A DNA stretch of 64,000 nucleotides from assembly GCA_040218535.1 (NCBI GenBank), contig JAVJRG010000005.1:1116001-1180000 (forward strand). Direction: 5' to 3'. Each line of letters starts with the position of its first letter. Within the stretch, counting starts at the first letter, position 1. Below the pieces are notes generated by a model that worked only from the letters and a program-made list of their open reading frames with translations, searched no databases and had not been told where the DNA came from. Of the stretch, positions 5,587-6,042 are shown piece after piece. Made by a program: the position numbers and the translations under genes. Origin of the DNA: Lacipirellulaceae bacterium (lineage in GTDB: Bacteria; Planctomycetota; Planctomycetia; Pirellulales; Lacipirellulaceae).

Positions 5587-6042
5587 AGCAGAGGGCCTGT
5601 AAGCCGGGTTTTGTCTCCACGCATGCGTGGACGACGATCATTCCTCTAGGACGACGATTGCTCGTGCGCCTCAAGCAGCCTACCCGAGAGTCGTAGCGAG
5701 CCGGACCGACTCTGCTCTCTGTTTGGCCTTGCGCCGGACGGGGTTTACCTAGCCAGCGGAGTCACCCCCGCTGCTGGTGCGCTCTTACCGCACCCTTTCA
5801 CCCTTACCTGTGAAGCTATCGGCTATCGGCTATCGGCTTTCGGCTTACTCGTTGGAATAATACTTCCTCAAGAAAGCCGATAGCCGATAGCCAACAGCCG
5901 ACAGCCCCCATCGGCGGTATCTTTTCTGTGGCACTTTCCCTCGCCTTACGGCGGGTGGACGTTATCCACCGTCCTGTCCTTCGGCGCCCGGACTTTCCTC
6001 CCGTCCCGACAAGTCGAAACCGGCGATCGTCCAGCCCTCTGC
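5587..6042 (-). ncRNA. rnpB: RNase P RNA (M1-type), with an expanded P12
   Basis: Read on the minus strand the RNA starts GCAGAGGGCTGGACG and ends CAGGCCCTCTGC, and these two ends pair as P1. Conserved core blocks are present in order: GGAGGAAAGTCCGGGC, CACAGAAA then ACCGCCGATGG, AGGTAAGGGTGAAAGG with GTAAGAGCGCACC, GGTAAACCCC, CGGGTAGGCTGCTTGAG, CCTAGAGGAATGAT and AAACCCGGCTTA. The RNA is the catalytic part of RNase P, which matures tRNA 5' ends. It is about 456 nt, longer than the roughly 380-nt E. coli RNA. Much of the extra length is a heptamer-repeat hairpin in P12 (5815-5905). Confidence 0.95.
5815..5905. repeat. GCCGATA-heptamer palindrome inside RNase P RNA
   Basis: Tandem 7-bp units (GCCGATA, with variants GCCAACA and GCCGACA) form two arms at 5821-5841 and 5872-5892 that pair perfectly over 21 bp around an A/T-richer 30-nt loop. 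The insert occupies P12 of rnpB, between ACCGCCGATGG and CAGGTAAGGG. A related heptamer run occurs at 36591-36622. Confidence 0.85.

Follow-up and report, generated by a model that had tools for sequence, protein, structure and literature searches.

Has the P12 helix of an RNase P RNA been lengthened by a repeat that is dispersed through the host's own genome? The question is raised by the rnpB gene in a stretch of 64,000 nucleotides (hereafter the window) from the genome of a Lacipirellulaceae bacterium (G000, 95.79% complete), for which the original prediction had proposed that such a repeat invaded P12. The gene and the parts of its P12 hairpin are the following:

5584..6042, minus strand: rnpB, encoding a bacterial type A RNase P RNA (match to the full RF00010 model at 304.7 bits)
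5809..5912, minus strand: 104-nt heptad hairpin in place of the P12 arm, between ACCGCC and GGTAAGGGTGAAA (fold)
5882..5908, minus strand: 5' side of the base helix (27 pairs), with heptads GCTGTCG GCTGTTG GCTATCG ... (MFE structure)
5840..5880, minus strand: upper part of the hairpin, a 7-pair helix (5874-5880 / 5840-5846) and an apical stem-loop (MFE structure)
5812..5838, minus strand: 3' side of the base helix (27 pairs), with heptads of GCCGATA type (MFE structure)

The Rfam match at window 6042-5584(-) exceeds the curated cut-off of 100 bits, covers model positions 1-367 of 367 and has the conserved core intact, which places the gene among the type A RNase P RNAs. It is the sole RF00010 match in G000, a genome that also encodes the RNase P protein RnpA (PF00825, 4.5e-31). 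The core bordering P12 is undamaged, as had been predicted, with ACCGCC(GATGG) on one side and (CA)GGTAAGGGTGAAA on the other. P12 itself is built from two heptad arms, which follow the form GCYRAYA and its complement. Its periodicity is marked, lag 7 being top at 20/21 (next best lag, 9/21), a score reached by 0/2000 shuffles. In addition, GCCGATAGCCGATA, allowing at most 1 mismatch, occurs 4 times in the window, every time within 5817-5889, and in 0/100 shuffles. These results confirm that the heptad P12 of the window rnpB is real and beyond chance. The lag-7 signal and the predicted fold together give a P12 stem made of tandem heptanucleotides, as in the STRR-type repeats discussed below.

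The best RNA fold of the window P12 has -73.0 kcal/mol (z = -13.0 against 200 shuffles) and 42 pairs in the whole hairpin, and at its base stands a helix of 27 unbroken pairs, G.U counted, formed by 5882-5908 with 5812-5838 (MFE fold). P12 had been described as a perfect 21-bp stem of GCCGATA heptamers. An inverted-repeat search of the window did return a perfect 21-bp repeat (5821-5841 / 5872-5892), but the register of the best fold is one heptad off it and the heptads of the P12 arm are mixed (GCTGTCG, GCTGTTG, GCTATCG and GCTTTCG) rather than pure GCCGATA. When G000 was compared with its congener G001 in the best register, 31 and 30 of 33 P12 stem positions were paired. Across these 33 positions, changes were two-sided in 6 cases and one-sided in 5; in the eight alternative registers the two-sided changes numbered 0 or 1. 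The paired changes indicate that the P12 stem has been kept between the congeners.

To relate P12 to the rest of the genome, we counted the heptads elsewhere in G000 and in other genomes. The GCYRAYA heptad pattern, GCYRAYAGCYRAYAGCY, is matched exactly 51 times in G000 and its reversed control 2 times; the 51 matches fall at about 27 places including P12 (matches merged by eye). The heptads of P12 are therefore dispersed elsewhere in the genome, as is the case for STRR-type repeats, and the proposed invasion of P12 by a dispersed genomic repeat is supported. In 23 genomes of other families the pattern has 0 or 1 matches each. Counts at least as high as that of G000 were obtained for G033 (135, control 52), G012 (51) and G013 (65), the last not being a count of free heptad hairpins since GCCAACAGCCGATAGCT copies of G013 belong to a longer dispersed repeat in 17 or more of the 19 full stretches listed. 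This longer repeat (L327-L346) has a conserved left part, CGCGCAGCAGCGAACGCCCACGC..., and a right part, CACCTGTCCATTAGAACAC, with heptads within.

Lag-7 arrays scoring at least 22/28 number 3 in the window, where lags 4-6 and 8-15 give none. De novo detection in 400 kb elsewhere in G000 gave 16 lag-7 arrays at 20/28 or more, 0 arrays each for lags 4, 5, 8, 10, 11, 13 and 16, and 9, 7, 10, 6 and 6 arrays for lags 6, 9, 12, 14 and 15, respectively; no lag-7 arrays at threshold were found in samples of G003 and G027. Over all samples, an inverted mate at most 200 bases away was present at p < 0.02 for 37/59 lag-7 arrays, which indicates that the dispersed form is often a hairpin and otherwise a single arm. 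One array of the window belongs to the heptad family of P12:

36589..36625, plus strand: single-arm array of the same heptad family (lag-7 array, 22/28), ending beside the start codon of ORF 36627-38204

The heptamers had been placed between two ABC genes, at 36591-36622. An array is indeed present there, but it is single-armed with a single exact GCCGATA, and no inverted mate was found within 200 bases (p 0.22). The "two ABC genes" are half shown, since the left neighbour is an ABC ATPase (PF00005, 1.3e-28) and the right neighbour (ORF 36627-38204) has no Pfam match above cut-off. Some dispersed copies directly follow a stop-like codon or a T run resembling a terminator (by eye, uncounted). 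Elements lying mostly outside ORFs of at least 100 aa made up 8/12 in the 400 kb of G000 (ORF cover 87%), 2/2 in the window and, in relatives, 2/2 in G001, 3/7 in G011, 3/5 in G015, 5/11 in G018 and 1/4 in G005, a placing made unreliable by false ORFs in G+C-rich genomes.

Around rnpB, lag-7 arrays of at least 14/21 were present in the 3' flank in 12/33 family rows and 0/21 others, and in the 5' flank in 1/33 and 0/21, respectively; as a control, other lags were top at 14/21 or more in the 3' flank in 6/33 family rows and 4/21 others (rows for G036 and G040 are missing from this comparison). The 3' flank of the window rnpB has lag 7 on top at 13/21, under the 14/21 threshold, and a second imperfect palindrome (GTTGTGGGTTATTGGGCGCGAGACGCGAG ... 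CTCGCGTCTAATAACCAACAAC) occupies 5473-5581, just 3' of the gene. At another locus of G000 (C5:286274-286699), a heptad hairpin of ACTGCCT type directly adjoins the RNase P protein gene rnpA, and at L353 (C12:660361-660877) a hairpin of the P12 heptad family apparently lies between two tRNA-like sequences (by eye).

Comparing the rnpB genes of relatives for loss of the heptamers, as had been proposed, we found P12s of 8-43 nt in 13/31 rnpB genes extracted from the family, and P12s of 12-40 nt in 22/23 genomes from other families of the order. These short P12s, like the dispersed copies, go against an ordinary P12 with the same heptamers throughout the Pirellulales and no copies elsewhere. P12 is at least 55 nt long in 18/31 family genes and lag 7 is the sole top in 17 of these 18 (G007 shows a tie with lag 4), counts that may each be one lower because the P12s of G032 (L019) and G019 (L077), assigned to different genera, are identical, which suggests contamination or misbinning. 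The lag-7 score was reached 0-5 times per 2000 shuffles in 15/18 long P12s, and period 7 was weak in G034, G035 and G007 (reached 11, 38 and 121 times, 2000 shuffles each). The heptads differ by genome (CCTAACA types in G011, CTAGCCC in G005, GCTGANN in G015 and GCTAACC in G018) and the family P12s span 8-114 nt, so that relatives carry unrelated repeats or none at this site, again as described for STRR-type insertions. A tree was built from 35 rnpB cores with P12 removed; it includes 4/23 outgroup rows and leaves out G012 and the second G025 copy, for which P12 extraction failed. The best such tree has good support for 11/32 inner branches and shows at least 10 changes in the long/short class of P12. 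G025 (58% complete) has two rnpB matches (L014, L061) with unrelated P12 heptads and is perhaps a mixed bin. These data bear on whether P12 has been extended functionally under selection, for instance for protein binding or RNA stability, with the heptads as mere building material. We consider this improbable: the stem kept through the 6 two-sided changes between G000 and G001 is in its favour, but such changes may also come from hairpins that are replaced or re-templated as units, and the 8-43 nt P12s in 13/31 family rnpB genes together with the repeated class changes argue against a required role.

If the hairpins derive from repeats of their hosts, each P12 should resemble the repeats of its own genome. 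Whole-genome counts with heptad patterns drawn by eye from the P12s of 8 long-P12 genomes showed that the P12 heptad is frequent in the host genome in 7/8. The P12 heptad of G005 has 50 matches in its own genome, the first of 59 genomes, many of these matches overlapping inside a few long arrays; that of G018 has 39 (first in the family, third of 59), that of G015 87 (rank second) and that of G006 33 (rank fifth). Further away, the P12 heptad of an Armatimonadetes genome has 76 matches in its own genome, the first of 7 (of the other six, five have 0-1 and one has 49), and that of a genome of Gemmataceae, another family, has 49, also the first of 7 (0-19 in the other six). G052 has a heptad P12 of 127 nt, but its heptad pattern gives 1 match in its own genome against a control of 5; this genome is rich in another heptad (76 matches). 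When P12 arms were compared with 200-kb genome samples, the own genome was best in 3/6 cases and second in 1 (G000), and far from the top for G005 and G015. A second 200-kb sample of G000 gave a low score for the P12 arm of G000.

Filled and empty sites occur within a single genus. The P12 of G015 is a 114-nt heptad hairpin, whereas in G022 and G027 it is 8 nt, GCGCAAGC; outside P12, rnpB of G015 is identical to those of G022 and G027 in 349 and 348 of 367 columns, respectively. The 5' arm of the G015 P12 matches, at 32/34 bases, a repeat located just past the 3' end of the G015 rnpB. GCTGA heptads are present in 40 copies in G027 and 29 in G022 although P12 is 8 nt in both, which indicates that genomic repeats alone are insufficient. 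This comparison weighs on the view that the heptad P12s are ordinary length variation, a long P12 drifting by heptamer slippage in place and unrelated to the dispersed repeats. P12 is known to vary, the G052 P12 does not match its own genome, and a hypothesis published in PMC4692102 links heptamer abundance to polymerase slippage, to which heptamers would be prone. We nevertheless hold this view to be very unlikely, as the dispersed copies share the same degenerate heptad, a near-identical second copy stands beside rnpB in G015 and P12 passes abruptly from 8 to 114 nt inside one genus. The near-identical copy and the all-or-none site are not readily explained by slippage alone, and slippage in place as the sole source was set aside on these two grounds.

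An ORF beside the 5' end of rnpB (6169-6687, plus strand) contains the motifs HAHGSWL and THVQVLV, reminiscent of Y1 transposases; searches against Pfam and NCBIfam, Y1 family included, gave no match for it. We find it highly doubtful that a Y1 (RAYT-type) transposase mobilises the heptads as REP-like elements: G000 has 11 Y1_Tnp matches, Y1 number correlates weakly with GCYRAYA matches (rho 0.35, p 0.04, 36 family genomes) and in one pair a heptad hairpin of G000 (C8:257874-257947) and a Y1 match (C8:260743) are some 3 kb apart, but GCTGA heptads are uncorrelated with Y1 number (rho 0.11, p 0.54), the ORF beside rnpB lacks a family match and the arms, judged by eye, vary in sequence between copies, sharing period and pairing. 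Like REP elements with RAYT, the heptads form palindromes scattered through a genome that has Y1 transposases; they appear to differ from them in their period-7 arms of variable sequence, in which no fixed foot tetranucleotide was seen (by eye). The link of the heptads to Y1 transposases is weak.

Altogether, we think it very likely that dispersed, STRR-like heptad repeats of the host genome repeatedly enter P12, where they are tolerated as foldable hairpins of the outer arm. The outer end of P12 would be colonised by a hairpin of the genome's own dispersed heptanucleotide repeats, and this hairpin would be transcribed within rnpB. It is predicted from the folding and from the paired changes between congeners to fold on itself and to leave the catalytic core undisturbed. 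The hairpin may be tolerated because P12 projects off the core and, from the literature on cyanobacteria, is dispensable for activity, and it would be neutral to the host. The near-identical copy and the empty-site comparison suggest that the repeats spread as ready-made, multi-heptad, foldable pieces, and heptad hairpins appear to be gained and lost repeatedly, with different heptads per lineage.

Heptad P12s extend beyond the family. We scanned a public genome set, as a sample and not a census, with an rnpB pattern for P12s of 76-106 nt; among the matches listed, 77 came from 80 loci and 48 resemble rnpB. Top-lag scores of at least 14/21 were found for 20 of the rnpB-like P12s among these listed matches, 17 with lag 7 and 3 with lag 8. 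According to the record taxa, the 17 lag-7 P12s listed belong to 11 cyanobacteria, 2 planctomycetes, 2 Bacteroidetes (one of them a Paludibacteraceae record, which we take to be Bacteroidetes), 1 Armatimonadetes and 1 Clostridia; the 3 lag-8 P12s listed are from 2 Hymenobacter (L234, L283) and 1 Treponema. The cyanobacteria with lag 7 among the matches listed include Nostoc, Calothrix, Rivularia, Leptolyngbya, Adonisia and others. Leptolyngbya and Adonisia are not known to be heterocyst-forming.

In cyanobacteria, the P12 repeat is reportedly not needed for catalysis by RNase P RNA in vitro. Vioque is said to have described in 1997 (Nucleic Acids Res 25:3471) that STRR, genome-dispersed tandem repeats of heptamers, lengthen P12 of rnpB in heterocystous cyanobacteria, and the STRR in P12 reportedly differ between cyanobacterial strains. 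P12 is sometimes dispensable, for example in cyanobacteria, according to a passage of PMC2858038 that cites Vioque 1997, and from these two sources a heptad-extended P12 is of an already known kind. The invasion of P12 by a repeat, put forward as notable, therefore holds as an invasion but has a precedent. The window case is a new, informative example of the cyanobacterial oddity described in 1997, which the present analysis extends by many cases in a second phylum, a pair with an empty site and broader sampling. Both have dispersed heptamer tandem repeats that lengthen P12 and are strain-specific; the present case differs in its Planctomycetota host, its other heptads, the empty site within a genus and the near-identical copy in the 3' flank. 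In the portions of the literature covered by our search, no description of planctomycete heptad P12s was recognised, Butler and Fuerst 2004 being outside its scope. Heptameric repeats of Xanthomonas and Nostoc are described in PMC4692102 as abundant, mostly intergenic arrays, with inverted arrangements mentioned for Xanthomonas, and TAACTGA repeats of Beggiatoaceae in PMC4679880 as abundant, mostly intergenic heptamer arrays that are nearly all direct (169 direct sets and one other in one genome). As described there, the repeats are like those of G000 in forming abundant heptamer arrays, inverted in Xanthomonas too. The string "planctomyc" has 0 occurrences in the main texts of PMC4692102 and PMC4679880, and "RNase P" has 0 in the main text of the latter (TAACTGA).

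These results suggest that what was an oddity of cyanobacteria recurs, with heptad hairpins of host type being taken into the P12 helix of an essential ribozyme in Planctomycetota and, as isolated records, in Armatimonadetes, Bacteroidetes and Clostridia (match to the host was tested for Armatimonadetes alone of these three). With empty and filled sites in one genus, rnpB could be a readable recorder of heptad repeat movement, and the heptad P12s could provide a natural series for how much foreign hairpin RNase P tolerates. A similar case is the intervening sequence (IVS) of bacterial 23S rRNA, where a hairpin is likewise inserted into a peripheral helix of a structured RNA that is essential; the P12 insert differs from the IVS in that its sequence is a dispersed heptad repeat. 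RNase III acts on uninterrupted duplexes of some 20 or more pairs. By analogy with IVS-bearing 23S rRNA, RNase III might cut the long P12 hairpin and leave mature RNase P RNA as a two-piece ribozyme held by helices. We regard such cutting as unlikely; if it were true, repeat invasion of P12 in several phyla would be a recurrent route to a naturally split RNase P RNA.

The window contains other palindromes as well. Two related imperfect inverted repeats at 924-1017 and 1343-1434 (AAAGCCCTAAGCGTTAGCG...) are REP-like, and further palindromes lie at 38944-39034, 44445-44491, 52958-53089, 56335-56468 and 57618-57844.
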